In this document: positions 31,213 to 54,128 of the stretch, piece after piece
Layout: each line of letters starts with the position of its first letter
How positions within the stretch are numbered: the stretch's first letter is position 1
Assembly: GCF_900101435.1 (NCBI RefSeq)
Contig: NZ_FMZH01000008.1
Span: 124,001 to 188,000 of the forward strand
DNA from: Pedobacter soli
Lineage (GTDB): Bacteria > Bacteroidota > Bacteroidia > Sphingobacteriales > Sphingobacteriaceae
Reading direction: 5' to 3'
Length of the DNA: 64,000 bases
Made by a program: the position numbers and the translations under genes
Notes under the pieces: model-generated
Seen by the model: only the letters and a program-made list of their open reading frames with translations
Databases searched by the model: none
What the model was told of the DNA's origin: nothing

Positions 31213-31272
31213 AAGTTACTCGAATTTGAAGTTTAAGGCATGTTTTTCTTAAAACGCCCCCTTCAAAGTATG

Positions 31273-31294
31273 ATTTAGCCCCCTGTTTATAGTC
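31273..31294 (+). promoter_or_regulatory. Possible third HTCS-type site ahead of the PUL enzyme operon
   Basis: ATTTAGCCCCCTGTTTATA resembles the left part of the cassette found before both susC genes (ATTTAACCCCTATTTATTA and ATTTGCCCCCTTTTTATTA). It lies about 57 bp before the BNR_4 gene. The right half of the cassette is not conserved here. Confidence 0.35.
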
Positions 31295-31350
31295 TAAAAA
31301 AAGCGGTACTTCGGCATTACCAAATAAAACTGAGCAGCCTAAATCTGAAT

Positions 31351-32676: not shown

Positions 32677-32691
32677 CCATTCAACTCATAT

Positions 32692-34860: not shown

Positions 34861-35993
34861 TGAACCTATTCAAATTATATAAATCAGTTTTTACAGCCCT
34901 TTGCTTAGCCTTGCTTTCGATAACGGGCTATGCGCAATCTAAAGCAGATGTGCTGGCCAGAATTAACCTGGCGAACCAATACTGGCAAACAAACAATAAA
35001 CCACAGGTACGCGCCTTTTGGGATCATGCCGCTTACCACACCGGTAATATGGAGCTTTATGCGCTCACCAAAAATGAAACTTATCTCAAATATTCGGAAG
35101 ATTGGGCCGAACACAATAAATGGATGGGGGCAAAATCAACTGATAAGACCAAATGGAAATATAAATATGGGGAAACAGATGAACATGTGCTTTTTGGCGA
35201 CTGGCAAATCTGTTTTCAAACCTATATCGATTTATACCACATTAAACCCGAAGCTTATAAAGTTGCCCGGGCTAAGGAAGTAATGGAGTACGAAATGAGT
35301 ACACCAAACAACGATTACTGGTGGTGGGCCGACGGACTTTACATGGTAATGCCCGTAATGACCAAATTGTACAAGCTTACCGGCAACAAACAATATTCGG
35401 ATAAGCTTTATGAATACTTTATGTATGCCAACAGCATTATGTACGATAAAGGAGAGAAACTCTACTACCGCGATGCCAAATATGTTTACCCGCAACACAA
35501 AAGCGTAAACGGTAAAAAAGATTTCTGGGCGAGGGGAGATGGCTGGGTGTTTGCCGGCCTGGCTAAGGTTTTGAAAGATTTGCCTGCAAACGATCCGCAC
35601 CGTGCCGAATATCTAACCAAATACACAAATATGGCCAAAGCCATCATTAAAAGCCAGCAGGCCGAAGGTTACTGGACAAGAAGCATTCTAGATGCAGCTC
35701 ATGCACCCGGACCGGAAACCAGCGGTACCGCATTTTTTACTTATGGTTTATTATGGGGAATCAACAATGGTTATTTAAAAGAAAAGACCTATTTACCTGC
35801 TGCTAAAAAAGGCTGGGATTACCTTACTAAAACGGCTTTACAGCAAGACGGGAAACTAGGTTATGTGCAACCCATTGGCGAAAAAGCCATTCCAGGGCAG
35901 GTAGTTGATGCCAACTCCACAGCCAATTTTGGCGTAGGCGCATTTTTATTGGCCGGCTGCGAAATGTACCGTTATTTATCAAACACCAAATAG
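34860..35993 (+). CDS. GH105 unsaturated glucuronyl/galacturonyl hydrolase
   Basis: A 377-residue (alpha/alpha)6-barrel enzyme with a signal peptide ending near GYAQ. The catalytic Asp lies in WWWADGLYMVMPVM, and RGDGWVFAGLAKVL and ARSILDAAHAPGPETSGTAF-like segments fit GH105. It hydrolyses the unsaturated uronic acid left by a polysaccharide lyase. No obvious lyase is in the PUL unless the BNR_4 protein is one. It starts within the stop of the GH43 gene and is followed after 12 bp by the DUF2264 gene. Confidence 0.85.
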   Translation: MNLFKLYKSVFTALCLALLSITGYAQSKADVLARINLANQYWQTNNKPQVRAFWDHAAYHTGNMELYALTKNETYLKYSEDWAEHNKWMGAKSTDKTKWKYKYGETDEHVLFGDWQICFQTYIDLYHIKPEAYKVARAKEVMEYEMSTPNNDYWWWADGLYMVMPVMTKLYKLTGNKQYSDKLYEYFMYANSIMYDKGEKLYYRDAKYVYPQHKSVNGKKDFWARGDGWVFAGLAKVLKDLPANDPHRAEYLTKYTNMAKAIIKSQQAEGYWTRSILDAAHAPGPETSGTAFFTYGLLWGINNGYLKEKTYLPAAKKGWDYLTKTALQQDGKLGYVQPIGEKAIPGQVVDANSTANFGVGAFLLAGCEMYRYLSNTK

Positions 35994-36005
35994 TTTTTAT
36001 TAGCA

Positions 36006-37253
36006 ATGAAATTCAGAAATATAGTTTTAACCTTTGCAGTACTCCTTATACTTGGTGCCCCTGCAATGGCGCAAAAGAAAGCCAAAAATGCAAAAGCCGA
36101 AGTGTTAACCGACAGGCAATTCTGGTTACAGCAAATGGACAAAATGGTTCGTCCGGTGCTGTACAACCTGGCTAAAGATAGTTTACGCATAGCCATGCCT
36201 AAAGTTACCTCTATCCATATCGACAACAAGGAACACCGCATAAAAGTACAGTACGTAGAAGTTTTAGGCCGCGTTTTGAGTGGTATTGCCCCATGGTTAC
36301 AACTGGAAGGAGGCTCGCCTGCCGAAGTTGCTTTACGCAAGCAGTACCGCGAGTGGGCCATTCAAGGCTTAAAAAATGCTTTAGATTCGAATGCAAAAGA
36401 CTTTATGAATTTCGATATCGGTGGGCAGCAGCTGGTAGATGCTTCTTATGTAGCTTTTGCTTTGGTACGCGCGCCTTGGTTATGGGAAAACCTGGATAAG
36501 AAAAACCAGGAGCTGATGATGAAATCGATCGTTACTACCCGTCGTTTTAAACCTGTTTTTTCTAACTGGTTATTGTTCTCGGCCATGAACGAAGCCTTTT
36601 TAGCCAAATTTGGTTACAGCTGGGATCCTATGCGTGTTGATTATGCCCTGCAGCAAATGGAACAATGGTATACCGGCGATGGCATGTACACGGATGGTAC
36701 TTCTTTTGCTTTCGATTACTACAACAGCTACGTCATTCATCCTTATCTGGCCGCTTTGGTCGATATTATCGGTTCCAAAACGAATGCATACAAAGAAATG
36801 TTCGAAAAAATTAAAAAGCGCAACGAACGTTACGCCGTTATTCAGGAGCGTTTAATTAATGCTGACGGTACTTATCCGGCCACTGGCCGTTCTATTATTT
36901 ACCGTGGTGCAGCCTTTCATCATTTAGCCGATATGGCCTGGAGGAAAGCCTTGCCTAAACAGTTAAGTCCGGCGCAGGTACGTTGTGCGTTAACAGCGGT
37001 AATCAGAAAAACCTTAGAAAACTCCACTACCTATAAAAATGGCTGGCTAACCATCGGGCTTTATGGCGATCAGCCTAATCTTGGCGATTTTTATAACAAT
37101 CAGGGCAGCCCCTACATCGCATCCAATATCTTTTTGCCTTTGGGTTTGCCCGAAACAGATACTTTTTGGTCGGCACCTGCAGCTAAATGGAGTGCACAGA
37201 AGATCTGGAGTGGCGAGAATTTTGAAAACGATCATAGCGCAAGCTTAAAATAA
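36006..37253 (+). CDS. DUF2264 protein, GH154-type putative beta-glucuronidase
   Basis: A 415-residue exported protein with a signal peptide ending near APAMAQ (about 23). The body matches DUF2264 (PF10022): GRVLSGIAPWLQLEGG, NWLLFSAMNEAF, YTGDGMYTDGTSFAFDYYN and TYPATGRSIIYRGAAFH. CAZy family GH154, which includes glucuronidases acting on arabinogalactan, is drawn from this family. The order GH105, DUF2264 fits stepwise removal of uronic acid. Exact specificity is inferred from family and context. Confidence 0.82.
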   Translation: MKFRNIVLTFAVLLILGAPAMAQKKAKNAKAEVLTDRQFWLQQMDKMVRPVLYNLAKDSLRIAMPKVTSIHIDNKEHRIKVQYVEVLGRVLSGIAPWLQLEGGSPAEVALRKQYREWAIQGLKNALDSNAKDFMNFDIGGQQLVDASYVAFALVRAPWLWENLDKKNQELMMKSIVTTRRFKPVFSNWLLFSAMNEAFLAKFGYSWDPMRVDYALQQMEQWYTGDGMYTDGTSFAFDYYNSYVIHPYLAALVDIIGSKTNAYKEMFEKIKKRNERYAVIQERLINADGTYPATGRSIIYRGAAFHHLADMAWRKALPKQLSPAQVRCALTAVIRKTLENSTTYKNGWLTIGLYGDQPNLGDFYNNQGSPYIASNIFLPLGLPETDTFWSAPAAKWSAQKIWSGENFENDHSASLK

Positions 37254-37344
37254 ACAGATAAATTAATTGGTGTATATCCCGTGAGCCAAGTAGATGATGA
37301 TTAAATTACACTTTTAATAACCTTAAAAAACATTAGTAAAAATT

Positions 37345-38463
37345 ATGCGTACAAAAATCAAATTTATAACTGGATTTATAGCTTTCAGTTTACTGCTGAG
37401 CAGTTACGTTTCGGCACAGCAGGCTTACACGTCTTTTACTCCGGGTAAAATCTGGAAAGATGATAAAGGTGTACACATTAATGCCCACGGTGGCGGTATT
37501 GTGGAGCATAAAGGTATTTATTACTGGTTTGGAGAACATAAAATTGAAGGAGAAAAAGGGAACACCGCCCAGGTGGGTGTGCATTGCTATTCTTCAAAAG
37601 ATTTATACAACTGGAAAGATGAAGGCATTGCTTTACCGGTTTCAGAAGATTTGACCAGCGACATTGCCAAAGGCTGTATTTTAGAAAGGCCTAAAGTGGT
37701 TTACAACAAAAAAACTAAAAAGTTTGTGATGTGGTTCCACCTTGAGCTTGTGGGTAAAGGTTATGCTGCGGCCAGATCGGGTGTGGCGGTAGCCGATCGT
37801 CCTACGGGCCCATATACTTTTATCAAAAGTTATCGCCCAAATCCAGGTAAAATGCCTTTTTATGCTGCCGGAACACCAGAAAAAGATCAGGTAAACTGCA
37901 CGCAGCCTGCCAATAAAAGCGATGGCTTTTTCTGCAGGGATTTCCCGGGCGGACAAATGGCGCGTGATATGACCGTTTTTGTTGATGATGATGGTAAAGC
38001 TTATCACGTTTTTTCATCAGAAGAAAACTTTACGCTGCATTTGGCAGAGTTAACGCCCGATTATCTCGGCCATACCGGAAAGTTTATCCGCATTTATGTA
38101 GGTCAGCAAACCGAAGCACCTGCTTTATTTAAGAAAAACGGTACTTATTATATGGTTGGCTCAGGTTGTACCGGTTGGGCACCAAACCCGGCGCGATGGT
38201 TCAAAGCCAGTTCTATCTGGGGGCCATGGACTTACATGGGCAATCCTTGTCAGGGAGAGGGCGCTAAGCTTACTTACGGCGGACAAAGCACACATGTATT
38301 GCCTGCACCTGGTAAAAAAGGTGAATTTATTTTTATGGCCGATAAATGGGAACCTAAAAATGCGATAGATGGTCGCTATTTATGGCTGCCAATCAAATTT
38401 GAAAACGATAAAATCACTATAAACTGGCTCGATCAATGGGATCTGAGCGTGTTTAAGAAATAG
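37345..38463 (+). CDS. GH43 (subfamily 24-type) exo-beta-1,3-galactosidase
   Basis: A 372-residue exported single-domain GH43 with a signal peptide ending near YVSAQQ. VHINAHGGGIVEHKGIYYWF and YGGQSTHVLP are typical of GH43_24 exo-beta-1,3-galactanases. The usual catalytic base Asp is absent from the first blade (Asn-Ala-His instead), as expected for this subfamily, where a Gln is thought to take the role. The acid is probably Glu in TEAPALF and the modulating Asp lies in ARDMTVFVDDDG. This enzyme is a strong marker for a beta-1,3-galactan backbone, hence type II arabinogalactan. It lies 91 bp after the DUF2264 gene. Confidence 0.85.
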   Translation: MRTKIKFITGFIAFSLLLSSYVSAQQAYTSFTPGKIWKDDKGVHINAHGGGIVEHKGIYYWFGEHKIEGEKGNTAQVGVHCYSSKDLYNWKDEGIALPVSEDLTSDIAKGCILERPKVVYNKKTKKFVMWFHLELVGKGYAAARSGVAVADRPTGPYTFIKSYRPNPGKMPFYAAGTPEKDQVNCTQPANKSDGFFCRDFPGGQMARDMTVFVDDDGKAYHVFSSEENFTLHLAELTPDYLGHTGKFIRIYVGQQTEAPALFKKNGTYYMVGSGCTGWAPNPARWFKASSIWGPWTYMGNPCQGEGAKLTYGGQSTHVLPAPGKKGEFIFMADKWEPKNAIDGRYLWLPIKFENDKITINWLDQWDLSVFKK

Positions 38464-38571
38464 CAAAAAATCAATTTTTAAATATTGAAACAAGATAATG
38501 AATTGCGCAAAAAGCGCAACAGGGGATTTTTTTGTCCAAAAAATCCGATTAATAAAAACAAAAATTACAGC

Positions 38572-40413
38572 ATGAAAAAGAAATTACTATGGTTGGTGGC
38601 GATATGCATTTCCTTATCTGCCACGGCGCAGCAGGCAAAGCATAGCTTTACACTAGGCGAATCAGATTTTTTATTAGATGGAAAGCCCTTCCAGATTATA
38701 TCGGGCGAACTTCATTATCCTCGCGTACCCAAAGAAGCCTGGCGCGAACGCATGAAAATGGCTAAAGCCATGGGACTGAATACCATTGGTACCTACGTAT
38801 TCTGGAACCTGCACGAGCCACAGAAAGATAAATTCGACTTCAGTGGCAACAAGAACATTGCCGAGTTTGTAAAAATTGCACAGGAGGAAGGACTATGGGT
38901 TATTTTAAGACCAAGCCCCTATGTGTGTGCAGAGTGGGAGTTTGGCGGTTATCCTTACTGGTTGCAAAACGAAAAAGGACTGGTGGTAAGAAGTACCGAA
39001 AAGCAATACCTCGAAGAGTACCGGAAATACATTCAACAGGTGGGTAAACAACTTGCACCTTTGCAAATTAACCATGGAGGCAACATTATCATGGTGCAGG
39101 TTGAAAATGAATACGGTTCGTATGCGGCTGATAAAAAGTACCTCGACATTAACCGGAAAATGTTTATCGATGCCGGTTTTGATGGCTTGTTGTACACCTG
39201 CGATCCGGCAGCCGATGTAAAAGACGGACATTTGCCTGGTTTATTGCCAGGAGTAAACGGTATCGACAATCCAGAGAAAATCAGAAAACTGGTAAATGAA
39301 AACCACAATGGCAAAGGACCATATTTTATTGCAGAATGGTATCCAGCCTGGTTCGATTGGTGGGGGACGGCACATCACACTGTGCCAGCTGCACAATACA
39401 CTAAAAAGCTGGATTCTGTTTTAGCTGCAGGTATTTCCATCAATATGTATATGTTTCATGGCGGTACCACCCGCGATTTTATGAATGGAGCCAATTATAA
39501 AGACATTTCACCATACGAGCCGCAAACCAGTAGCTATGATTACGATGCACCTTTAAACGAAGCTGGTAATGCTACCGATAAATTTATGCAGTTTAGAAGC
39601 GTAATTGAGAAGCATTTGCCTGCCGGACAAACTTTACCAGCTGTGCCCGCTGCAAAGCCCAGCATGGCTATTGCACCCTTTAAATTAACTGAAAAAACAG
39701 CGCTGTTTAACGCATTGCCCGCACCAGTAAAAAATGCCACTCCTTTAACTTTCGAAGACCTTAAGCAAGATTATGGCTATGTACTTTACCGTACCACTAT
39801 TCAAGGCGGTAGAGAAGGCGAATTGCAGCTTAAACAACTCCGTGATTATGCAATTATCTACGTAAACCAAAAATGGGCAGGTATTTTAGATCGACGGTTA
39901 AATCAGAATGCAATAACGATTACGCTGCCTAAAGGAAAGGTACAGCTTGATATTTTTGTAGAAAACATGGGGCGTGTAAACTTTGGCAAGTATCTGCTCG
40001 AGAATAAAAAAGGAATTACCGAACAGGTGAGCTTTGCCGGTAAAGAAATCAAAAACTGGTCAATGTATGGTTTTCCGTTTAATGATATCAATAGTTACAA
40101 AACTAAACCTGCTGCCTTATACGAAAATGGAAATGGTCCGGCGGTGCTTAGAGGTACATTTGATATCAATACTGTAGCCGATACTTATCTCGATATGACC
40201 GATTGGGGTAAAGGTGTAGTTTGGATTAACGGGCATAACCTGGGCAAGTACTGGGCAATTGGTCCGCAACAAACTTTATACGTACCGAAGGAGTGGTTAA
40301 AGCAGGGCAAAAACGAAGTGGCTGTTCTGGAACTCCTGCAAACCGATCTTCAAATGCTAAAGGCGATAGACCAACCAATCCTGAATACATTAAAAAAATT
40401 AAACGTCGATTAA
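38572..40413 (+). CDS. Exported GH35 beta-galactosidase of the PUL
   Basis: A 613-residue enzyme from ATG 38572 (MKKKLLWLVAICISLSATAQQ, a clear signal peptide); the frame extends 29 codons upstream but that part is not signal-like. The GH35 barrel has acid/base Glu180 in VENEYGSYA and nucleophile Glu255 in IAEWYPAWF. Jelly-roll domains follow, including WGKGVVWINGHNLGKYW. It lacks the C-terminal discoidin-like module of the GH35 at 10852. It probably trims beta-galactose from arabinogalactan oligosaccharides. Its stop codon lies within an AAACGT-rich element that may be regulatory for susC. Confidence 0.9.
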   Translation: MKKKLLWLVAICISLSATAQQAKHSFTLGESDFLLDGKPFQIISGELHYPRVPKEAWRERMKMAKAMGLNTIGTYVFWNLHEPQKDKFDFSGNKNIAEFVKIAQEEGLWVILRPSPYVCAEWEFGGYPYWLQNEKGLVVRSTEKQYLEEYRKYIQQVGKQLAPLQINHGGNIIMVQVENEYGSYAADKKYLDINRKMFIDAGFDGLLYTCDPAADVKDGHLPGLLPGVNGIDNPEKIRKLVNENHNGKGPYFIAEWYPAWFDWWGTAHHTVPAAQYTKKLDSVLAAGISINMYMFHGGTTRDFMNGANYKDISPYEPQTSSYDYDAPLNEAGNATDKFMQFRSVIEKHLPAGQTLPAVPAAKPSMAIAPFKLTEKTALFNALPAPVKNATPLTFEDLKQDYGYVLYRTTIQGGREGELQLKQLRDYAIIYVNQKWAGILDRRLNQNAITITLPKGKVQLDIFVENMGRVNFGKYLLENKKGITEQVSFAGKEIKNWSMYGFPFNDINSYKTKPAALYENGNGPAVLRGTFDINTVADTYLDMTDWGKGVVWINGHNLGKYWAIGPQQTLYVPKEWLKQGKNEVAVLELLQTDLQMLKAIDQPILNTLKKLNVD

Positions 40414-40534
40414 ACGTTTAAAAAATCAAAAAATAGGGGTTAAAGGCCAAAATTTAACAAAAAGTAACAATTTAACCCCTATTTATTACCGTATTGCCCC
40501 TCACTCCACCGATGTTTTAAATGGTTACTTTGTT
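40401..40534 (+). promoter_or_regulatory. susC-1 control region: AAACGT half-sites plus conserved 70-bp cassette
   Basis: Half-sites AAACGT (40401-40406) and the palindrome TAAACGTTTA (40411-40420) precede a 70-bp block (40465-40534). That block is identical at 54 of 70 ungapped positions to one ahead of susC-2 (45938-46007). Fully conserved parts are TAACAATTT, TTATTACCG, CCCCTCACT and ATGGTTA. It ends in TTACTTTG, one base off the -7 consensus TAnnTTTG, and no -33 TTTG is visible, as expected for an activator-dependent promoter. The predicted leader is about 120 nt. Confidence 0.7.
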
Positions 40535-40656
40535 GTAATCAATCCATCCCTATTCATGAATAATTTACACAACAGGTCAGATTAATGCTTAATAAATAAG
40601 CCTTTGTTGAATCTTGTTAACGATTCAATTATTATCTAACCAAATAATCTTTAAAA

Positions 40657-43653
40657 ATGAAAAGAAAACTACTAGACACATCTAAGTGTGCGGTAATATT
40701 TTTGTTTGCTTTATTCTTATCATTAGGTAAATCAAACGATGCCATTGCGCAAACAAACGCTCAAATCTCAATTTCAGGAAAAATAAAAGATAGTCAGAAC
40801 AATCCAATTCCCGGGGCTTCCATTACGGTTAAGGGAACCACCCGAATTGTGGCCAGCGATGGGAATGGAAATTTTAAAATAACCGCCCAAAATGGAGAAA
40901 GTTTAGTGATTACCTTTGTTGGATACGAAACCCAAACAATCTTAATTGGTAATCAGACACAGTTTAACATTATTCTTGCAGAAGACAAGGGGAAAAGCTT
41001 AAACGACGTAGTGGTAATTGGATATGGTACACAAAAAAGATCAGATGTAACCGGTTCGGTTGTATCGGTACCTAAAGCCAGGTTATCACAATTACCGGTT
41101 ACCAACGTACTTCAATCTATTGAAGGTGCTGTTGCGGGGGTTAACATTACCACCACTTCATCTGTGCCAGGTAAAGAGCCCAGTGCTTTAATCAGGGGAC
41201 AGAATTCGATTACCGCTTCGGCCGGGCCATATGTGGTGGTAGATGGGGTGCCATTAACGAAAACCGGTGGATCTTTAAACGATATCAACCCAAATGATAT
41301 TGCATCAGTAGAGGTTTTAAAAGATGCAAGTGCCACTGCGATTTACGGTACCAATGGTTCGAACGGGGTTATTTTAATTACCACAAAAAGAGGAACTTCG
41401 GGTAAACCGGTGATCCGTTATGGTGGATATTACGGAATAGAAAACCTGACTAATATTTTAGAACCACGTACAGGGGCTGAATACGTACAGAAATACGCAG
41501 ATTACATGAAACAAACCGGTCAAACACAAACTAAACCGGTGCCAAATAATGGCGAGCTTGCAGCTTACAATGCAGGTACTACTACCGATTGGGTTGCCGA
41601 AGCTACCCAAACCGGAAAAATACAGGATCATAATGTAAGTATTTCTGGCGGAAGCCCGGATGTGAAATATTTTATTTCGGGCGATTACCTGGATCAGAAA
41701 GGGGTAGTGAAAGGTTACCAGTTCAAACGCCTTGGTCTACGTTCTAATCTTGATGTAAATGTAACCAGCTTTTTAACTGTTGGAACCTCGCTGTTTTTGG
41801 CCAGCAACAATTACGATGGGGGCAGAGCGAATCTCTTACTGGCAACTGCTATGAGCCCTTATGGTAAAGAGTATAATGCCAACGGGACCTATGCTATTTA
41901 TCCGATGGACCCGGAGCAACTTTATGTAAATCCGCTGTTAGGGTTAACCACCACACAGATTAGCAGAACCACTAATATTAATGGTAATGGTTATGCTGAA
42001 ATTAAATTTCCGGGTGTATTAACAGGGCTTAAATACAGATTGAACGCCGGGTACACTTATTTTCCGAAGCGTGAAGGAAGTTATACTGGCCGTTTAGCTA
42101 ATGATATGCTTGGAACTGCCAGAAGTTTCAACGCATCTACAAACAGTTATACCATAGAAAATATCTTGACCTATGCGAAAGATATTAAAAAACACCATTT
42201 TGATATTACCGCATTATATAGTGCTCAGGAACGCAAATACAATGAAACTACAGCTGGTGCTACGGGTTTTATTAATGACGAACTTGGCCTGGATAACATT
42301 GGTGCCGGAGCAACGCAAACCAGTGCTTCTTACCGCGATCGCTATGGTCTTAATTCGCAAATGGCACGTGTTTTTTATGCTTACGATAGCCGCTACCTGC
42401 TAACCTTAACTGCGCGTAGAGATGGTTCTTCGGTGTTTGGATCGAGCACTACAAAATATGGGGTGTTTCCATCTGCTGCTATTGGCTGGAATATTATTAA
42501 CGAAAATTTTATGAAAAATGTTTCATTCATTAACAACCTGAAACTTAGATTATCTTATGGTAAAACCGGTAATGAGGCTGTTAGTGTTTATCGGACCATT
42601 ACAACCGAAAGTTCTTCGCGCTCGCCTTTTAATGGCATTAGCACCATTGGGGTTATTGCAGCCAATTTAGGTAATACCTCACTGCAGTGGGAAACCACTA
42701 AAACAGCCAATATCGGTTTAGACTTCGGTTTGTTTAATAACCGGATTTCAGGTAGCATTGAGGCCTACCAGAATAAAACCAGCGGTTTATTATTAAGCAG
42801 AAGCCTCCCCATTATTACAGGTTATGTAAATGTACTGGAGAATATCGGTAAAACATCAAATAAAGGGCTGGAGCTGACCTTAAATACACAAAATATTAAA
42901 GGAGAGGGCTTCCGTTGGGAAACCAGTGTTGTTTTTGCGGCTAATAAAAATAAAATCGTTGATTTGTATGGCGACGGTAAATCAGATCTTGGAAACAGGT
43001 GGTTTATCGGCAGCCCGATTGGGGTAGTTTACGATTACCAGATGACGGGTGTTTGGCAAACAGGAGAGGATGTATCTAAACAAGATCCTACCGCGAAACC
43101 AGGCAGTTTAAAATTTGCCGACCTCAATGGCGATGGCAAAATTACAGCTGACGACAGGACTATTTTAGGTCAAACTGCACCAAAGTGGACCGGTGGTATA
43201 ACCAATACTTTCCATTATAAAAACTTTAACCTGAGCGTCTTTATTCAAACGGCCCAGGGTATGACAAAAAATAACCCTGATTTAACCTATGGCGATGAAA
43301 CAGGCAGAAGAAATACGCCTGCAGAAATTGGTTACTGGACTCCTGAAAATCAAAGCCAAACCCGTCCGGCATTGTCTTACAACAATACTTTAGGTTATGG
43401 ATATGCATCCGATGCAAGTTATACGAGGATTAAGGACGTTACTTTAAGTTATGTTTTTGCGCAAAACCTGTTAGATAAACTTCATTTAGGTGGTTTAACC
43501 GTATATGCAAGCGGCCGTAACCTGCATACGTTTACCAATTGGATTGGTTGGGATCCGGAGAACAATTATTCTACCCGTGGTTCTGGAGACTGGACCAATA
43601 ACTATCCTTTAACCAAAACGTTCGTAGTGGGTTTAAATGTTTCGTTACGTTAA
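40657..43653 (+). CDS. SusC-like TonB-dependent glycan transporter 1
   Basis: A 998-residue outer-membrane transporter with a signal peptide ending near NDAIAQ (about 32). A CarboxypepD_reg domain (about 38-115, IPGASITVKGT), a plug (about 120-240, VVIGYGTQKRSDVTGSV and SATAIYGTNGSNGVILITT) and a large barrel ending VGLNVSLR follow. It imports oligosaccharides through the lid formed by the SusD encoded 11 bp downstream. The pair lies at the end of the PUL enzyme run and shares its promoter cassette with susC-2. Confidence 0.93.
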   Translation: MKRKLLDTSKCAVIFLFALFLSLGKSNDAIAQTNAQISISGKIKDSQNNPIPGASITVKGTTRIVASDGNGNFKITAQNGESLVITFVGYETQTILIGNQTQFNIILAEDKGKSLNDVVVIGYGTQKRSDVTGSVVSVPKARLSQLPVTNVLQSIEGAVAGVNITTTSSVPGKEPSALIRGQNSITASAGPYVVVDGVPLTKTGGSLNDINPNDIASVEVLKDASATAIYGTNGSNGVILITTKRGTSGKPVIRYGGYYGIENLTNILEPRTGAEYVQKYADYMKQTGQTQTKPVPNNGELAAYNAGTTTDWVAEATQTGKIQDHNVSISGGSPDVKYFISGDYLDQKGVVKGYQFKRLGLRSNLDVNVTSFLTVGTSLFLASNNYDGGRANLLLATAMSPYGKEYNANGTYAIYPMDPEQLYVNPLLGLTTTQISRTTNINGNGYAEIKFPGVLTGLKYRLNAGYTYFPKREGSYTGRLANDMLGTARSFNASTNSYTIENILTYAKDIKKHHFDITALYSAQERKYNETTAGATGFINDELGLDNIGAGATQTSASYRDRYGLNSQMARVFYAYDSRYLLTLTARRDGSSVFGSSTTKYGVFPSAAIGWNIINENFMKNVSFINNLKLRLSYGKTGNEAVSVYRTITTESSSRSPFNGISTIGVIAANLGNTSLQWETTKTANIGLDFGLFNNRISGSIEAYQNKTSGLLLSRSLPIITGYVNVLENIGKTSNKGLELTLNTQNIKGEGFRWETSVVFAANKNKIVDLYGDGKSDLGNRWFIGSPIGVVYDYQMTGVWQTGEDVSKQDPTAKPGSLKFADLNGDGKITADDRTILGQTAPKWTGGITNTFHYKNFNLSVFIQTAQGMTKNNPDLTYGDETGRRNTPAEIGYWTPENQSQTRPALSYNNTLGYGYASDASYTRIKDVTLSYVFAQNLLDKLHLGGLTVYASGRNLHTFTNWIGWDPENNYSTRGSGDWTNNYPLTKTFVVGLNVSLR

Positions 43654-43664
43654 TATTAATTATC

Positions 43665-45290
43665 ATGAAAAAGTATAGCATCATTATAGCATCATTAACC
43701 GTTTTGTTTTTTACATTTTCCTCATGTAAAAAGGCATTTCTGGATGAGAAACCATTTTCTTCATACACTCCATTAACACTTACCGATTCTTTAGGGTTTG
43801 AGGCCTCGCTAATTGGTTTGTATAACCATACCAGTACCATATTTTCATGGTCCGATCAGCAAGGCTGGCCAAGTGTTTGGCAGGTAGGTACGGATGTGGC
43901 CAATGCCACCAATAACCAGCAGGGAGTAGAAATTCCATATTATAATTACGCCACTTTAACACCAACAGATGTAGGTTCGGCACGTACCTGGAACAGGAAC
44001 TTTGTTATGGTTAACCTAACCAATATCATTATCGATGGTATCGAAAATCCTGCGGTGAGCAGCATCAGCGCCAAAGGAAAAAGTTTAGTTAATGCCGAAG
44101 CCAGGTTTTTTAGAGCTTATGCTTACAATAATCTAGCTACCTGCTATGGCGGGGTGCCTTTAATTTTGCATGCATTAACAGGACCGAAAACCGATTTTGT
44201 GCGTGCCCCCTTAGCCGATGTAAACAATCAGATTGTAAACGATTTGATTTACGCTTCAAGCAATTTGCCGGATATTGAATCGGTGAAAACCAATGCTAAA
44301 GGTAAAATGTATGGCCGTGCAAACAAATTTATGGCCATGCAGCTATTGGCTGAGGTTTATTTAAGGATGGGCAAGCCGGATTTGGCTGAACAACAGGCAC
44401 AAGCCATTATTTCCAGTGGTAAGTTTAGCTTGATTAAGGCCCGTTATGGCGTTAAAACCGGTCAGGCGGGCGATTACTATTCGGATATGTTTCAGTATGG
44501 TAATCAAAGAAGATCGCAAGGCAATACCGAAGCCATTTGGGTACTGGAGCAGGAGAATCCAACAAGTGTAGTAGGTGGAATTACCGATAACCCGCAACAG
44601 CGCAGGGTTTGGGGTGCTGCATATTACAATATTGCCGGTATGTCTATTGCTGATTCATTGGGAGGCAGATCCATAGGCAGGTTGAGATTGAGCAATTGGG
44701 TTTTATACGGTCTGTATAAAGGAAACGATATTAGAAATTCACAATACAATATACGCAGAAGGTATTATTACAATAATCCGGCTGCACAATATGCCAGTAT
44801 TTATGGTAAGCAGGTTCCCTTTACTGGTCCTGATACTTTAATTAATATTTGCCCGAGTACAACCAAATGGGGAGCTTTTGACCCCAACGATAGTTTTGGT
44901 TATGCCATGATTAAAGATTTTATTTTGATGCGTTTAGGCGAAACTTATTTGTTGTTGGCTGAAGCACAGGTAGCGCAAGGCAAAACCGGCGAAGCCGCTA
45001 CAACCATTAATGTGTTGAGAACCAGGGCTGGTGCCGATCAGGTTACCGCTGCTCAAATGACAAAAGATTTTATCCTTGATGAAAGAGCCAGAGAACTTAT
45101 TGGGGAGGAAAACCGTAGGATGACCTTAATGCGTACCGGAACATTGGTAGAACGCGCACTTCGTTTAAATGCAAATGATGCTGTAAAACCAATTACCGGC
45201 TTAACTTCAAAGAATTTATTACTTCCTATTCCATTAACTGAAATCCAGTTGAATAAGGATGCGGTTTTAACACAAAACCCAGGTTATTAG
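43665..45290 (+). CDS. SusD-like glycan-binding lipoprotein 1
   Basis: A 541-residue SusD/RagB-family lipoprotein with lipobox SSC at about residue 21 (FSSCKKAFLDEKPF). Helical TPR-like segments (AEARFFRAYAYNNLA, KFMAMQLLAEVYLRMGK) and a C-terminal RARELIGEENRRMTL form the usual SusD core. It captures the glycan at the cell surface and closes over SusC-1. It is followed by a terminator at 45320. Confidence 0.92.
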   Translation: MKKYSIIIASLTVLFFTFSSCKKAFLDEKPFSSYTPLTLTDSLGFEASLIGLYNHTSTIFSWSDQQGWPSVWQVGTDVANATNNQQGVEIPYYNYATLTPTDVGSARTWNRNFVMVNLTNIIIDGIENPAVSSISAKGKSLVNAEARFFRAYAYNNLATCYGGVPLILHALTGPKTDFVRAPLADVNNQIVNDLIYASSNLPDIESVKTNAKGKMYGRANKFMAMQLLAEVYLRMGKPDLAEQQAQAIISSGKFSLIKARYGVKTGQAGDYYSDMFQYGNQRRSQGNTEAIWVLEQENPTSVVGGITDNPQQRRVWGAAYYNIAGMSIADSLGGRSIGRLRLSNWVLYGLYKGNDIRNSQYNIRRRYYYNNPAAQYASIYGKQVPFTGPDTLINICPSTTKWGAFDPNDSFGYAMIKDFILMRLGETYLLLAEAQVAQGKTGEAATTINVLRTRAGADQVTAAQMTKDFILDERARELIGEENRRMTLMRTGTLVERALRLNANDAVKPITGLTSKNLLLPIPLTEIQLNKDAVLTQNPGY

Positions 45291-45319
45291 CATATTTCGG
45301 TTAGTATGATTAATTGCAG

Positions 45320-45353
45320 CTCCCCGGATCTTAATTGATTTGGGGAGTTTTTT
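45320..45353 (+). terminator. Terminator after SusC/SusD pair 1
   Basis: CTCCCC (45320-45325) pairs with GGGGAG (45342-45347) and is followed by six T. It closes the first SusCD unit and separates it from the second. Confidence 0.85.
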
Positions 45354-45379
45354 AGTTTTAGCTGCAAAGCATGCTAATC

Positions 45380-45800
45380 TTAAAAGTTTAAACCACAAAG
45401 GATACTAAGTTTCAGGTTTTTTCATGTTGCGCCTATCAGCGTTATCTGAGGGAATAAATTTACGAATTTGCCTTTCTCTTTGCGTGCTTTGTGCCTTCAC
45501 TCTGTTTTCTCTGTGGTTAATAACTAGTGCAGTGGTTAAACTGCGTACTTAGCGCTTTTTTTGCGCCCTCTGGCTTAAAAATGAGTTGATCTCATCATCG
45601 CATGCTTTAATTAACCACAAAGCGCTAAGGCACGAAGTGTCATATACCTTTGCAAATACTGCTCAAAATGTAACTTTATGTCCACTGTGCTCCGCTCTGT
45701 GTCCTCTGTGGTTAAATTAATTATTAGCGCCGTGGTTAAATTGTGTGCTTTGCGCTTTTTCTTCGCGCCCTCTGCGGTTAAAAACGCGCTAATCTCACAC
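45380..45800. repeat. Dispersed AACCACAAAG-type repeats with an imperfect direct repeat
   Basis: Within the 1.1-kb gap between SusD-1 and SusC-2, AACCACAAAG appears twice on the plus strand (near 45392 and 45615) and CTCTGTGGTTAA or GTGGTTAAA several times in the opposite orientation. Two imperfect copies of about 100 bp (from about 45505 and about 45700, offset 195-200 bp) share GTGGTTAAA, TTAGCGC/TTTGCGC and GCGCCCTCTG. The same AACCGCAAAG core occurs in the 24-kb tandem array. Frames here are not convincing genes. Confidence 0.65.
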
Positions 45801-45860
45801 GTTAACTGGCAACTATTTAAGCTTATTATTTGTCAGGAATTCCTGAATGAAGGTTTGTAT

Positions 45861-46007
45861 TATAAACGTATAATTAACGTTTATAAAAATGAAATTTTAT
45901 CCAAAAAACTCAAAAAAGGCCAAAAAGTGACTAAAAATAACAATTTGCCCCCTTTTTATTACCGGATTACCCCTCACTAGCAGCGTCTTTTTTATGGTTA
46001 ATTTGTT
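45861..46007 (+). promoter_or_regulatory. susC-2 control region: AAACGT inverted repeat plus conserved 70-bp cassette
   Basis: TATAAACGT (45861-45869) and ACGTTTATA (45877-45885) form a perfect inverted repeat. Downstream, 45938-46007 is the second copy of the 70-bp cassette described for susC-1, again ending in a near -7 element (TTAATTTG). The gap between the AACGTTT element and the cassette is about 10 bp longer than at susC-1, one helical turn, which would keep both elements on the same DNA face. Confidence 0.7.
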
Positions 46008-46390
46008 AAAACCAAGTATAAGATATAAGCCGTGCCAAAATTATTCGAAGATTAACTACCGAGAATAATTGATGAATGTAACGAATAAAAATTGTTACTA
46101 CCAGTTTTTGCGAACCAAAACCAAATCGAAAACCAATCCCTAAAATAAAATATATGAAGAAAGCCAAATTTACGCTACCCCATTTACAGCATAGGTAAAA
46201 AAACATCGTACTGCTTCTTTAAAAAGCAATCAAATTAATTAAGAAACAACCTGGAATTTGGAGCCTAAGCTCCTGGTTCCAAATACTAACTGACGAAAAA
46301 TATTTTCGATCGGATGAGCAGCCTTTTGCCTTTTCAATTTAAGGGGCGATCGGAATCCGGTTAAAAATAACTAACCAATTAAACCATTTT
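46008..46390 (+). other. Long structured 5' leader of susC-2
   Basis: If transcription starts just after 46007, the leader is about 380 nt. It contains a stem AATTATTC/GAATAATT (46039-46046 with 46063-46070) and a two-part hairpin, GGAA/TTCC outside GGAGC/GCTCC (46253-46280). The last 20 bases, CTAACCAATTAAACCATTTT, recur before the GH127-like gene. No open frame of note. Confidence 0.45.
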
Positions 46391-49300
46391 ATGAAGAAAA
46401 AATTACCGAAGAAAGTCCCGCTCTACAAGCTGGGAAAAGCTTTAAGACCAATTTTACAGTTTTTGGTCTGTCTCGTAATTACCGCCTCTTATTTAACGGC
46501 ATCGGCACAAACAGATGTAACCGTTAAAGGGATGGTAAAAGACACTGTTGGCGGTTTGCCCGGCGTAAACGTAAAAGTATCGGGCACCAACCGCGGTATT
46601 TCTACCGATGAGTTTGGACGCTATACCATCAAATTGCCCCGCACAGGAAAATTGTTATTCACCCTGGTAGGTTACAAACCTAAAAATGTGGCTGTTGCCA
46701 ATTACGATAAAAATGCAGACGGCACTTATACCATCAACGTTACCCTCCAATCAGATGCCAACTCGCTGGATGAGGTGGCTGTAGTAGGTTTTGGTACACA
46801 GAAAAAAACAAGTGTAATCAGCTCCATTACGGCCATTAACCCAAAAGAACTGAAAGGGCCAACCAGTAACCTTACCACCATGATGGCCGGTAGGGTAGCC
46901 GGTATGATTGCCTATCAGCGTAGTGGCGAACCCGGCGCCGATAACGCGCAGTTTTTCATCCGTGGGTTGGGTACATTCGGTGCCGGTAAACAAGATCCGC
47001 TAATTTTGATCGATGGTATCGAATCGACCCAAAACGATATGGCGCGTTTGCAACCCGACGATATTTCTTCATTTAACGTATTGAAAGACGCTACTGCATC
47101 GGCCGTATACGGTGCAAGGGGGGCAAATGGGGTAGTGCTCATTTTAACCAAATCGGGTGTGGCTGGTCAAACCAAGTTTGGTTTCAGGGCCGAATCATCG
47201 CTATCTGCCAACACCAAAAATTTCCAGTTTGCCGATAACGTTACCTACATGAAACTGGCTAACGAAGCAGCCCTTACGCGTAACAGGCTGGCCATTTTGC
47301 CTTACCTGCAAACCAAAATAGATGCTACCGCTGCGGGCGAGAATGAATTGCTTTACCCCAATAACAACTGGATTGAGCAATTAATTAAAGATTATACCAT
47401 TAACCAAAGGTATAACCTCAATATTTCGGGTGGGGGTACAAAAGCGAGTTACTATATAGCGGGTACCTACAATATCGATAATGGTGTACTGAAGGTGGCC
47501 GATTTAAATAACTTTAACAACAACATCAAGTTAAAAAACTATTCGGTCCGCTCTAATGTAAACATTAACCTTACCAATACTACAGAGGCTATTATCAGGG
47601 TATATGGCCAGTTTGATGATTATACCGGGCCAGTGGGTGGTGGTGGAGCTACTTTTAACCGGGCCATTTGGTCTAACCCGGTAATGTTCCCGGCGGTTTA
47701 TCCGGCCAGTTTATCGCCCTACAGCAATCACCCTTTATTTGGTAATGCAATTTCGCCACGAGGCGGATTGTACATGAATCCTTATGCCGAAATGGTGAAA
47801 GGGTACCAGGATAAAAATTCATCCACATTACAAACGCAGATTGAAATTAAGCAGGATTTGAAATTCATTACCCCAGGTTTAACTGCCCGGATGATGAGTT
47901 ATGCCCGCAGGTATTCATATTTCGATATTTCACGCGCGTACAATCCTTTCTATTATACCGCAACCGAACAACCCGATAAATCTATCGGATTAACTTTAAT
48001 GAATGGAGGAGGAGCTTTATCAGTAGGAACTGTAGGTACAGAGTATCTGGGGTATTCTGAAGGAACAAAAGACTTAAATTCTACCTTCTATGCTGAGTTT
48101 TCTGCTAACTACAGCCGTACTTTTAAAGATAAACATGCTGTAAGCGGTATGTTAATTACCACCATGCGTAATTATCTGGCGGCAAATCCGGGTAGTCTTC
48201 AGCTTTCGCTGCCATCGCGCAACCAGGGTGTATCGGGTAGGGCTACTTATGGTTACGATAACCGTTACCTGGCCGAGTTTAACTTCGGTTACAATGGTTC
48301 CGAGCGTTTTGCAGAAAATAACCGCTTTGGTTTCTTCCCTTCTTTTGGTTTAGGCTATATCATCTCTAACGAAAATTATTTTAAACCTTTAACCAAAGTC
48401 ATTAACAGTTTAAAACTCAGAGCAACTTATGGTTTGGTAGGTAACGATCAGATTGGTAATGCAGCCGACCGTTTCTTCTATCTTTCGGAAGTAAATATGA
48501 ATAACGGAACTTTCGGCACAAGGTTCGGCGAAGATGGATTGTATTATCGTGATGGTATTTTGGTTTCCCGTTATTCCAATCCGCTAATTACCTGGGAAAG
48601 ATCTAAACAAACCAACATTGGTTTGGACATGACCTTGTTTAACAGCCTGAACCTGACCTTCGATATTTATAAAAACGAACGTTCTAATATTTTAACCGAC
48701 CGTACTTTTATACCAAGTACCATGGGCTTACAAGCTGCTGTAAGGGCCAATACCAATAAAGCCGAAAGCAAAGGTGTCGATTTTTCGGCCAGCTATAACA
48801 AATCTTTCAGCAACAGCATGTTTTTGCAAATGCGTGGTAATTTTACCTATGCTACCAACAAAATTTTAATTTACGATGAACCTTCTTTTAACGCAAATGA
48901 GGCTTATCGTACACATGTGGGCTTACCCACCACACAAGCCTTTGGTTACATTGCTGAGCGTTTGTTTGTTGATGATGCAGAAGCGAAAAACTCACCGGTT
49001 CAGTTTGCGGGTGTACCCGGCCTTGATTACGGAGGAGGAGACATTAAATACCGCGACGTAAATGGCGATGGCATTATCAGTGATGTAGATCAGGTGCCTA
49101 TTGGCTTGCCAACCAGCCCTGAAATTGTGTATGGTTTTGGTGGTACATTTGGTTTCAAAGGATTCGATATTTCTGCGTTCTTTCAGGGATCGGCCAGATC
49201 TTCGTTCTTCATCAATCCTGGTAATATTTCTCCTTTTGTGCTTAACAACGAATCAGGCAATCCTAACGTTACCCAAAATGGATTGTTGCAGGTAATTGCC

Positions 49301-49624
49301 GATAGTCACTGGTCTGAGCAAAACCGCGATAGCTACGCTTTCTGGCCACGTTTAAGCCCAAATTTTGTAAACAACAATACCCGTACCTCAACCTGGTGGA
49401 TGCGTAACGGAGCCTTTTTAAGGCTAAAAAGCGTAGAGCTGGGCTACAACCTGCAAAGCAAATTGCAGAAAAGGCTGGGCTTAAGCAGTGCACGTTTTTA
49501 TGTTAACGCTACCAATCTTGGTGCTTTAAGTGCTTTCAAACTCTGGGATCCTGAAATGGGTGGCAACGGTTTGGGTTATCCTGTTCAAACCGTATACAAT
49601 TTAGGTTTAAATGTTTCATTCTAA
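46391..49624 (+). CDS. SusC-like TonB-dependent glycan transporter 2
   Basis: A 1077-residue SusC with a long basic N-terminus (KKKLPKKVPLYKLGK) before the signal helix, cleavage near TASAQ (about 40), a CarboxypepD_reg domain (LPGVNVKVSGTNRG), a plug (VAVVGFGTQKKTSVISS, SAVYGARGANGVVLI) and a barrel ending LGLNVSF. It is about 80 residues longer than SusC-1 and not a close duplicate. It heads a cluster with SusD-2, two surface glycan-binding lipoproteins and a GH16 enzyme. Confidence 0.93.
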   Translation: MKKKLPKKVPLYKLGKALRPILQFLVCLVITASYLTASAQTDVTVKGMVKDTVGGLPGVNVKVSGTNRGISTDEFGRYTIKLPRTGKLLFTLVGYKPKNVAVANYDKNADGTYTINVTLQSDANSLDEVAVVGFGTQKKTSVISSITAINPKELKGPTSNLTTMMAGRVAGMIAYQRSGEPGADNAQFFIRGLGTFGAGKQDPLILIDGIESTQNDMARLQPDDISSFNVLKDATASAVYGARGANGVVLILTKSGVAGQTKFGFRAESSLSANTKNFQFADNVTYMKLANEAALTRNRLAILPYLQTKIDATAAGENELLYPNNNWIEQLIKDYTINQRYNLNISGGGTKASYYIAGTYNIDNGVLKVADLNNFNNNIKLKNYSVRSNVNINLTNTTEAIIRVYGQFDDYTGPVGGGGATFNRAIWSNPVMFPAVYPASLSPYSNHPLFGNAISPRGGLYMNPYAEMVKGYQDKNSSTLQTQIEIKQDLKFITPGLTARMMSYARRYSYFDISRAYNPFYYTATEQPDKSIGLTLMNGGGALSVGTVGTEYLGYSEGTKDLNSTFYAEFSANYSRTFKDKHAVSGMLITTMRNYLAANPGSLQLSLPSRNQGVSGRATYGYDNRYLAEFNFGYNGSERFAENNRFGFFPSFGLGYIISNENYFKPLTKVINSLKLRATYGLVGNDQIGNAADRFFYLSEVNMNNGTFGTRFGEDGLYYRDGILVSRYSNPLITWERSKQTNIGLDMTLFNSLNLTFDIYKNERSNILTDRTFIPSTMGLQAAVRANTNKAESKGVDFSASYNKSFSNSMFLQMRGNFTYATNKILIYDEPSFNANEAYRTHVGLPTTQAFGYIAERLFVDDAEAKNSPVQFAGVPGLDYGGGDIKYRDVNGDGIISDVDQVPIGLPTSPEIVYGFGGTFGFKGFDISAFFQGSARSSFFINPGNISPFVLNNESGNPNVTQNGLLQVIADSHWSEQNRDSYAFWPRLSPNFVNNNTRTSTWWMRNGAFLRLKSVELGYNLQSKLQKRLGLSSARFYVNATNLGALSAFKLWDPEMGGNGLGYPVQTVYNLGLNVSF

Positions 49625-49647: not shown

Positions 49648-51651
49648 ATGAAAATCAATAATATTTTATTTAAAAAATACATGGCAAAGCCAGGTTTGGC
49701 TAAGCTAACTGCGGCTGCGCTGGTTATCGTTTTATCGGTGAGCTCCTGCAAAAAGTACCTCGATATCGTTCCCGATAACGTAGCTACAATCGATAATGCC
49801 TTTACCTTAAGGAACGAAGCCGAAAAATACCTGTTTACCTGTTATTCTTTCCTGCCAAAAGATGGCGAACCATTGCTAAACGCCGGTTTTATGGCTGGCG
49901 ATGAAATCTGGACCTCGCTGGATGAAAGGGAATTTATTTCTTATGGCTGGAGGCTGGCAAGGGGAGGACAAGGAGCAGAAAACCCATTACTGGATGCCTG
50001 GAATGGTCGTTATCAGGGTGGCGGTAACGTTTATAATTACAATGATAATCCCGGTGGAGATTATGGTTTGTTTAAAGCCATCAGAAACTGCAACATCTTT
50101 TTAGAAAATGTGCAGGACCAGAGTAAAATACCAGATTTGAGCTTAAACGAACGCGAGCGCTGGATTGCCGAGGTGAAATTTTTAAAAGCCTATTACAATT
50201 TCTATTTGTTGCGCATGTATGGCCCCATTCCGATTGTAGATACCAATATCGGGATTAGTGCAACAGAAGAAGAAGTGCGGATTAAAAGAATGCCATTTGA
50301 TGAATGTGTAAATTACATCTCAGGCTTACTGGATCAGGCCATTCCGGGCTTGCCGCAAATTATTACCGATAAAAGTACCGAGCTGGGCCGCATTACCAGG
50401 CCTATAGCACTCGCTATTAAAGCCAAACTTTTATTAACAGCTGCCAGTCCTTTGTTTAATGGCAATACCGATTACAGTAACTTTAGAGATAAAGACGGAG
50501 TAGTGTTATTTAACACCGCTTACGATGCCAATAAATGGAAAAAAGCAGCCGATGCTGCCAAAGCCGCTATTGATGCTGCCGAAGCTGCAGGTTTTAAATT
50601 GTACCAGTTTCCGGGTACTACTTTTAAATTATCTGATACCACACTAAGACAGCTTACCATTAAAGGTGCAGTAACTGAGCGTTTTAACGTTAACCTCGAA
50701 CATGTTTGGGCCAATCCGAACAGCCGTACCTTTAACATGCAAAGGGCTGCCATGCCACGCTTAACTTCTGCTGTTGTAGTAGGAAGTGCACGTCAGCAAC
50801 TGGCTCCTCCATTAAAAATTGCCGAAATGTTTTACAGTAAAAACGGTGTGCCGATCAACGAAGATAAAACACTCGATTTTACCAACAAATATACGCTGCG
50901 CACTGCAGTTAAAAGCGAGCGCTTTTATGTAAAGGAAGGCTACACTACAGCCAGGATCAATTTTGACCGCGAACCGAGGTTTTATGCCGATTTAGGTTTT
51001 GATGGTGGAATCTGGTATAAATACGATAGCCCAACCAATTCGGATGAAGGCACTTTCGTACTCGAAGGCAAATCGAACCAGGTGGCTGGTGCAAACAATT
51101 TCGGCTGGTACAACGAAACAGGTTATTTCATCAAAAAACTGGTCGATTGGAACATGATTAACGGAACAAACGGAGCCAGCTACCGCGATTATCCATGGCC
51201 CGAAATCAGAATGGCCGACCTTTATTTAATGTATGCCGAAGCCCTAAACGAAACCCTGGCAGCACCATCGGCCGATGTATACGAATACATTAACCGCATC
51301 AGAACGAGGGCCGGTTTGCCAACCGTACAAAACGCATGGACCAACTTTTCAAACAACCCGGGTAAGTATACAACCAAAGATGGGATGCGCGAAATTGTCC
51401 AGCAGGAAAGACTGATTGAAATGGCGTTTGAAGGAAGCCGTTTTTGGGATATCAGACGCTGGAAACGTGCTGCAGAAATGTTTAACCAACCCATTACCGG
51501 ATGGAGCGTTTACCAACCTACCTCTGCAGAATATTACCGTGTACGAACCATTTTTAACCAAAATTTTGTGGCTCCACGCGATTATTTGTGGCCATTGCGC
51601 GCATACGATTTAACTGTTAACCCTAAACTGGTTCAAAACCCAGGCTGGTAG
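49648..51651 (+). CDS. SusD-like glycan-binding lipoprotein 2
   Basis: A 667-residue SusD/RagB-family lipoprotein, larger than SusD-1. The lipobox is SVSSC (about residues 31-35), followed by KKYLDIVPD. An in-frame Met at residue 12 (MAKPGLAKLT) is an alternative start giving a more normal signal length. The C-terminal FEGSRFWDIRRWKRA and NPKLVQNPGW are typical. It sits 23 bp after susC-2. Confidence 0.92.
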   Translation: MKINNILFKKYMAKPGLAKLTAAALVIVLSVSSCKKYLDIVPDNVATIDNAFTLRNEAEKYLFTCYSFLPKDGEPLLNAGFMAGDEIWTSLDEREFISYGWRLARGGQGAENPLLDAWNGRYQGGGNVYNYNDNPGGDYGLFKAIRNCNIFLENVQDQSKIPDLSLNERERWIAEVKFLKAYYNFYLLRMYGPIPIVDTNIGISATEEEVRIKRMPFDECVNYISGLLDQAIPGLPQIITDKSTELGRITRPIALAIKAKLLLTAASPLFNGNTDYSNFRDKDGVVLFNTAYDANKWKKAADAAKAAIDAAEAAGFKLYQFPGTTFKLSDTTLRQLTIKGAVTERFNVNLEHVWANPNSRTFNMQRAAMPRLTSAVVVGSARQQLAPPLKIAEMFYSKNGVPINEDKTLDFTNKYTLRTAVKSERFYVKEGYTTARINFDREPRFYADLGFDGGIWYKYDSPTNSDEGTFVLEGKSNQVAGANNFGWYNETGYFIKKLVDWNMINGTNGASYRDYPWPEIRMADLYLMYAEALNETLAAPSADVYEYINRIRTRAGLPTVQNAWTNFSNNPGKYTTKDGMREIVQQERLIEMAFEGSRFWDIRRWKRAAEMFNQPITGWSVYQPTSAEYYRVRTIFNQNFVAPRDYLWPLRAYDLTVNPKLVQNPGW

Positions 51652-51677
51652 TATGAATTGATTAAAAAATATTCGAT

Positions 51678-52877
51678 ATGAAAAGAATAAATAAAAACCT
51701 GCTGTTATTCCTGTTAAGCTTAACAGTAGCATTTTCGGGCTGTAAAGAGGATCAGTTAGGCCCCTTAGAAAATAACACCACGCCTCCGGGCAAAGTAAGT
51801 AATGTTACCATTAAAAACGGAGCAGGTAATGCCAGCATTACTTTCAGCTTACCTGCCGATAAAGATTTATTGTATGTTAAAGCTGTTTACTATCTGGCTA
51901 ACGGTCAGGAAATGGAAGTAAAAACTTCCTATTATGGCAATACTTTATTGGTAGAAGGTTTTGGCGATACCAATGAACATGAGGTGAAAATTTACGCCGT
52001 AAACAGAAGCGAAGTGGCTTCAGAACCGACCATTGTGAAGGTTAAACCACTCGAAAACCCGATCTGGGGGGTATACCGTAGCCTTAAGGCTGTTGCCGAT
52101 TTTGGTGGATTAAACTTTAAAGGAAGCAATCCCGCTAAAGCCGACCTCGCCATAGAAGTATTGGTTCTGTCGAAAGGGAAATATGTGCCAACGGCAAAGA
52201 ACATTTATACTGCCGCTCCTGAGATCGATCAGTCGATCAGGGGACTGGATACATTGACCCAGAAATTTGCCATTACCATTCGCGACAGGTGGTTAAATTA
52301 CAGCGATACGCTTTTTACCACTTTAAAGCCGCTATATGAAACTGTATTGCCTAAATCAACTTATAAAGAGGTGATTTTACCTACCGATTCGCCACAGGAA
52401 TATACCTCTACAGGCGTATCCAAAATGTGGGATGGCAATATTATCGACTGGCCGAGTGTGTGTTTAACCAAAACCACTGTATTAACACCACAATGGGTAA
52501 CTTTCGATCTGGGCAGAACAGCAACCTTAAGCCGTATAGTAGTGTGGAATTATCCCGAATACCTCAATGCCGGACGTACTTATTACTATGGAGGCAATTT
52601 AAAGGATTTTGAAATCTGGGGAACCGATAATCCGCCAGCTGATGGCAGCTTTAACAACTGGGTAATGTTGGGTAAATACAGTTCTACCAAACCTTCTAAA
52701 AGTGCCTATGGGGTACAAACCAGCGAAGATTATGCTTTTGCCAATGCCGGTATCAGTTACAATTTTGCCGTTGGACTTAAAAAAGTACGCTATATCCGCA
52801 TTAAATCTATTAACAACTGGCAGGGCACTTCTTTCATGAGTGTTTCTGAAGTACAGCTTTATGGCGATCCGAGGTAA
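51678..52877 (+). CDS. Surface glycan-binding lipoprotein (DUF4959-DUF5126-DUF5000)
   Basis: A 399-residue lipoprotein with lipobox AFSGC (about 18-22). It has three domains in the order usual for PUL surface proteins: a fibronectin-like DUF4959 (about 35-125, PPGKVSNVTIKNGAGNASI), DUF5126 (about 130-235) and a discoidin-like DUF5000 (about 245-395, ending VRYIRIKSINNWQG and SVSEVQLYGD). It probably holds substrate at the cell surface for the SusCD-2 complex. It is 26 bp downstream of susD-2. Confidence 0.87.
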   Translation: MKRINKNLLLFLLSLTVAFSGCKEDQLGPLENNTTPPGKVSNVTIKNGAGNASITFSLPADKDLLYVKAVYYLANGQEMEVKTSYYGNTLLVEGFGDTNEHEVKIYAVNRSEVASEPTIVKVKPLENPIWGVYRSLKAVADFGGLNFKGSNPAKADLAIEVLVLSKGKYVPTAKNIYTAAPEIDQSIRGLDTLTQKFAITIRDRWLNYSDTLFTTLKPLYETVLPKSTYKEVILPTDSPQEYTSTGVSKMWDGNIIDWPSVCLTKTTVLTPQWVTFDLGRTATLSRIVVWNYPEYLNAGRTYYYGGNLKDFEIWGTDNPPADGSFNNWVMLGKYSSTKPSKSAYGVQTSEDYAFANAGISYNFAVGLKKVRYIRIKSINNWQGTSFMSVSEVQLYGDPR

Positions 52878-52896
52878 TTAAAAAAGCATTTTAAAG

Positions 52897-54090: not shown

Positions 54091-54128
54091 TACTGTTTGG
54101 TTTAATACTTAAGCCAATTAGTAAATTT

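Follow-up and report, generated by a model that had tools for sequence, protein, structure and literature searches.

Two susC promoters in a single PUL of Pedobacter soli share a matching cassette, and we propose with considerable confidence, on the basis of sequence comparison, that both are composite promoters in which a tandem repeat would be bound by an HTCS and an upstream palindrome by AraR. The repeats, their spacing, conservation and exclusivity, and their co-occurrence with the HTCS are direct observations. Coordinates refer to the window, the 64,000-nucleotide stretch of P. soli DNA that was analyzed as a whole, and features lie on the + strand unless stated otherwise.

Matching cassettes and their tandem half-sites

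Positions 40465-40534 and 45938-46007 are identical at 54 of 70 positions without gaps, reproducing the match reported in an earlier, sequence-only reading of this DNA. For 1,000 pairs of upstream regions after Markov shuffling, the best 70-mer match had a mean of 36.4 and a maximum of 43, and nothing else in the window matches either copy at more than 36/70. The blocks TAACAATTT, TTATTACCG, CCCCTCACT, and ATGGTTA, listed in that reading as perfectly shared, are all present, as is a near -7 element at the end of each cassette (TACTTTG at 40526-40532 for susC1, TAATTTG at 45999-46005 for susC2). A whole-genome search, which the same reading had suggested as a check, found two copies of the core in 6.0 Mb (query TTATTACCGNNTTNCCCCTCACT, up to 3 mismatches), both in the susC promoters of the window. 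The genome-wide scans were pattern searches; a 44-bp profile was run on the window, on 19 other stretches of the same genome, and on 41 HTCS loci. Across the window and the 19 stretches, no place other than the two cassettes, at 75 and 65 bits, exceeds 8 bits. An RNA element was considered and rejected: because the cassette is located upstream of the -7 box and no Rfam match was found in positions 31100-46500, a DNA site is the likelier reading. Between susD1 and the susC2 promoter (45610-45785), phrases like 'TGTGGTTAAATTA' and 'CTCTGCGGTTAAA' are repeated, and this region resembles a small repeat element.

In an alignment of 47 related promoters, the core of the cassette is a tandem direct repeat of 17-bp half-sites, TAACAATTTAACCCCTA and TTACCGTATTACCCCTC. 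Profile and alignment together place the predicted HTCS half-sites of the susC1 promoter at 40465-40481 (TAACAATTTAACCCCTA) and 40486-40502 (TTACCGTATTGCCCCTC), and those of the susC2 promoter at 45938-45954 (TAACAATTTGCCCCCTT) and 45959-45975 (TTACCGGATTACCCCTC), with a spacing of exactly 21 bp in both. Because the promoters were collected with a pattern that covers half-site 2 only, the conservation of half-site 1, which is about as strong as that of half-site 2 across the 47 promoters, provides independent support for the tandem. Self-similarity of the half-sites in these promoters is highest at lag 21, closely followed by lag 22 due to the C run. The distance from the second CCCC to the TAnTTTG -7-like box is 29 bp in both susC promoters of the window. 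A degenerate tandem CCCC pattern, used alone and genome-wide, gave 5/3 against 5/2 for a control pattern, which is not significant. Predicted HTCS sites in Bacteroides are direct repeats with a mean spacing of 21 bp (Ravcheev et al., PMC3878776), and the predicted layout of the cassette is the same.

An inverted copy of half-site 1, ATAGGGGTTAAA, lies on the - strand at 40433-40444 and pairs with TTTAACCCCTAT at 40471-40482 as a perfect inverted repeat of 12 bp. Many promoters of the first transporter slot have this copy as well, but the susC2 promoter does not. In six related loci (L131, L132, L134, L140, L015, and L019), an inverted copy directly follows half-site 2 (e.g., CCCCTCAAT-TGAGGGGTAA), and copies of this type create a palindrome between the half-site and the -7 box.

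The sequence-only reading missed a third, diverged tandem ahead of the enzyme operon. This repeat (31257-31284, GCCCCCTTCAAAGTATGATTTAGCCCCCT) consists of CCCCCT/CCCCCT elements 22 bp apart, and a -7-like element, TACTTCG (31307-31313), is found 49-50 bp from its first CCCC, a distance equal to that in both susC promoters. Among orthologues, the diverged tandem occurs in 26 of 36 gaps between the HTCS gene and the next gene by a strict pattern, with related forms in several others; the 44-bp susC-cassette profile, run over the 31257 tandem, gave no match. We consider it reasonably probable that the same HTCS controls the enzyme operon through this tandem.

The HTCS and the cassette across Pedobacter

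The protein encoded at 27166-31212 combines a Reg_prop propeller, Y_Y_Y, HisKA, HATPase_c, Response_reg, and HTH_18 domains (Pfam), with SHELRTPL in the HisKA region and a SHIP motif at residue 1157; the S/CHIP motif is a feature of HTCS receivers (PMC11253607). Judged by these predicted sensor, kinase, receiver, and AraC-type HTH domains and by SHIP, it is an HTCS, the one encoded in the PUL and complete in its expected domains. The host is a Pedobacter, and the gene is close to that of P. kyungheensis. Downstream are the enzyme operon (31351-40413; BNR_4, GH43/GH32N, GH88, DUF2264, GH43, and GH35 by Pfam), susC1 (40657-43653; Pfam Plug/CarbopepD), susD1 (43665-45290; Pfam), susC2 (46391-49624), whose product is 25% identical to SusC1, and a segment encoding SusD2, two surface-type proteins, and a GH16 enzyme (49648-55066; Pfam). 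The sulfatase, BNR_4, GH43, GH88, DUF2264, GH35, and GH16 genes and the neighboring galT/galK fit an arabinogalactan-protein-like glycan as the putative substrate. In B. plebeius, a PUL for sulfated AGP has been described (PMC8406133).

A nine-codon upstream ORF, MNNLHNRSD*, lies at 40556-40585, about 50 nt past half-site 2. About 17 related promoters, which precede different susC genes, have a version of it (MxN[FL][YH]x[R]SD*), once per genome where found, and it varies most at third codon positions (0.475 versus 0.29 and 0.32). It is possibly a leader peptide.

We compared 145 Pedobacter genomes, counting as an HTCS orthologue any protein with at least 75% in the C-terminal region. Such an orthologue is present in 31 of the 34 genomes that carry the core and in 15 of the 111 others (Fisher's test, P = 5e−17), a P value that overstates the evidence because the species are related, so that genome counts share ancestry and are not independent, and because HTCS and susC are linked within one PUL. 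Three genomes with a two-mismatch core and no HTCS orthologue look like chance matches, and the two of these loci that were read are both without the tandem. Placement at susC promoters is stronger evidence than this co-occurrence statistic. Across the 41 HTCS loci (about 0.8 Mb), every match to the 44-bp profile is 49-535 bp upstream of a susC-like gene, with two exceptions that precede genes whose starts read like lipoproteins. The cassette is thus placed almost only at susC promoters, rather than being common before unrelated genes, as the sequence-only reading had said would count against it. It is also kept ahead of non-orthologous susC lines with about 30% identity. The promoter was retained as transporters were exchanged. 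Between GH35 and SusC2, loci L130-L145 have a transporter slot in which non-orthologous susCD pairs differ by Pedobacter species, while the flanking enzymes and the promoter stay constant.

One could explain the two cassettes as leftovers of a single duplicated transporter promoter that share no regulator. The match does run beyond the 70 bp, through a shared AAAGGCCAAAA and the predicted AraR box, and common promoter ancestry may well hold. However, SusC1 and SusC2 are only 25% identical, yet the cassettes agree at 54 of 70 positions and persist in dozens of species in front of susC genes that are not orthologues, and drift would not keep exactly the half-sites and their spacing. We regard duplication without a shared regulator as very improbable.

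Binding of the tandem by another regulator, either a different AraC-family protein or a paralogous HTCS, is somewhat less implausible but still quite unlikely. Several other HTCS genes are present in the genome, and one of them, on contig 25, has a related CCCC tandem ahead of its own susC (L173, 8400-8890). Some HTCS paralogues may therefore share half-site preferences, and specificity among HTCSs is not absolute. Against this alternative, the tandem sites and the HTCS gene belong to one PUL, the sites co-occur with orthologues of this HTCS, and no other locus scanned in the genome exceeds 8 bits. As expected of predicted HTCS sites, the cassettes precede operons of the PUL that encodes the HTCS, and their conservation follows that of the HTCS. 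The central proposal of the sequence-only reading, a single HTCS driving both transport systems, is strongly supported by comparison, through the 21-bp tandem, the co-occurrence with HTCS orthologues, and the near-exclusive placement at susC genes; the proposal was nonetheless incomplete, for it took the predicted AraR palindrome for AAACGT-type half-sites and did not include the enzyme-operon repeat.

The upstream palindrome and its helical phasing

Both susC promoters have an exact palindrome, TAAACGT-N7-ACGTTTA, upstream of the cassette (40400-40420 and 45863-45883; no strand assigned), which we predict to be an AraR box. The AAACGT-type half-sites noted in the sequence-only reading are real and shifted by one helical turn, but they were under-described, since they form perfect 21-bp inverted repeats and are not HTCS half-sites. 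There are seven perfect palindromes with TAAWCGT arms in the genome. Besides the two at the cassettes, they are associated with araB-araD-araA, a GDSL-GH127 operon, a GH51 gene, a GH2 gene, and a pair of GH32N-like and GH51-type genes. The araBDA copy (C14:144133) directly precedes araB-araD-araA, and a PIN/PhoH gene is oriented divergently from it. A further copy, with one mismatch, is flanked on one side by the gene for a Nudix-type AraR homologue, together with its HAD partner, and on the other by the gene for an aldose 1-epimerase. The best solved match of this homologue (C14:34941-35639) is BtAraR (PDB 5bs6, E = 8e−64), whose site at BT0365, AAAGTGT-AAAAAAG-ACACTTA, is 21 bp long with a 7+N7+7 layout (PMC4666351). 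TAAACGT-N7-ACGTTTA likewise has the 7+N7+7 layout of an AraR operator and precedes arabinose catabolic genes in a genome that encodes an AraR homologue. Given this layout, the placement at araBDA and arabinosidase genes, and the one-mismatch site beside the homologue, we assign the palindrome to AraR, and it is most likely the operator of the Pedobacter protein. An NrtR-type gene on contig 9, which was first suspected to be AraR, was rejected when those of its neighbors that were checked proved not to be arabinose genes. Several HTCS-bearing genomes with AraR lack the palindrome (e.g., G027, G028, G057, G058, and G066), and the box is therefore not obligatory.

The PUL is flanked by a second candidate for the palindrome, a galTK-linked Nudix regulator (55793-56491) that is a 62% identical paralogue of AraR; were it the binding protein, the second signal would be galactose and not arabinose. 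Its own promoter, however, has a different arm: TAATTGT-N7-ACAATTA, at 56553-56573 between the regulator gene and galT, is a probable autoregulatory site of this AraR-related galactose regulator. Moreover, the palindrome is retained in four genomes that have AraR and lack the second paralogue (G005, G040, G079, and G131), while two without a close AraR are also without it (G012 and G045). Control by the galactose regulator is thus unlikely, although less so than the other alternatives considered here.

The palindrome could also represent a global catabolite site of the CRP/Cur type. An upstream position and helical phasing, both seen here, are typical of CRP-like activators. However, the genome copies of the palindrome cluster on arabinose genes, and the Bacteroides Crp consensus, wwwTATGTTnTAnAACATAwww, differs from it in sequence and spacing (PMC3878776). 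We give such a catabolite site very little credence.

Relative to the core, the palindrome is offset by −83 in the susC1 promoter and −93 in the susC2 promoter, so that the shift of about one helical turn claimed in the sequence-only reading is exact in the window. It is also a rule: in 37 promoters with a palindrome of at most 2 mismatches, offsets are either −82 to −84 or −92 to −94, with none between, and further loci agree. Both spacings are seen in SusC1 orthologues, SusC2 orthologues, and distant SusCs. This one-turn rule suggests that the two regulators contact each other or polymerase. We tentatively raise the possibility, which we hold to be less probable than its opposite, that AraR and the HTCS touch on the same DNA face, directly or via a short DNA bend, and form one composite switch that reads a polymer signal and free arabinose. 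Such contact would explain why, in three classes of susC, the only change in the gap is one of 10 bp, or one turn.

Proposed mechanism and relation to known systems

From these observations we infer the binding proteins, an activating role for the HTCS, and the sign of the effect of AraR. The HTCS (27166-31212) would sense an oligosaccharide, and its AraC-type domain would bind the two direct half-sites, 21 bp apart and on one DNA face. With the downstream half-site 29 bp from the -7-like box (CCCC to TAnTTTG), bound HTCS would be well placed to recruit RNA polymerase at both susC promoters, and the diverged copy at 31257 probably does likewise for the enzyme operon. The predicted palindrome of the Nudix-type AraR, 63 bp (susC1) or 73 bp (susC2) upstream of half-site 1, center to center, and in helical phase with the HTCS sites, would add arabinose control to both transporters. 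Because BtAraR dissociates from DNA when arabinose is present, a repressor is the default reading for AraR here.

The analysis gives a promoter map for a PUL outside gut Bacteroides, with the base blocks predicted for the sensor, the operons that it would switch, and the predicted entry point of a second sugar signal. With the promoter constant and the susC genes behind it changing, the PUL illustrates how new transporters can enter a control circuit that already exists. The spacing rule of one turn suggests physical coupling of two regulator families whose only known connection, as far as we could find, is that they share target operons.

At I1-I2 of E. coli araBAD, tandem half-sites of an AraC-family protein lie 21 bp apart beside the promoter. 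There, the protein is the ligand-binding AraC and no AraR box is present, whereas the Pedobacter regulator would be a membrane two-component hybrid. The predicted HTCS regulons of B. thetaiotaomicron are similar in having tandem repeats about 21 bp apart ahead of the operons of the HTCS's own PUL, and one such regulon can hold two SusC/D systems (HTCS_Rgu-1; Ravcheev et al. 2013, PMC3878776). The likeness noted here is one of layout, and Pedobacter adds a linked palindrome, predicted to be an AraR box, at fixed phase. BtAraR (BT0354; PDB 5bs6, 5deq) is an NrtR-family arabinose regulator of arabinose genes and arabinosidases, and three B. theta PULs are under dual HTCS and AraR control (PMC4666351). 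A 21-bp 7+N7+7 operator and arabinose and arabinosidase gene targets are common to both systems. In contrast, the arm in Pedobacter is TAAACGT instead of AAAGTGT, and in dozens of Pedobacter promoters the predicted AraR box keeps a fixed helical phase upstream of the HTCS repeat. Both kinds of feature, tandem HTCS sites and dual control by HTCS and AraR, are already known from Bacteroides; new here is an unusually well conserved, phase-locked composite promoter that is kept across dozens of Pedobacter species while the susC genes behind it are exchanged.
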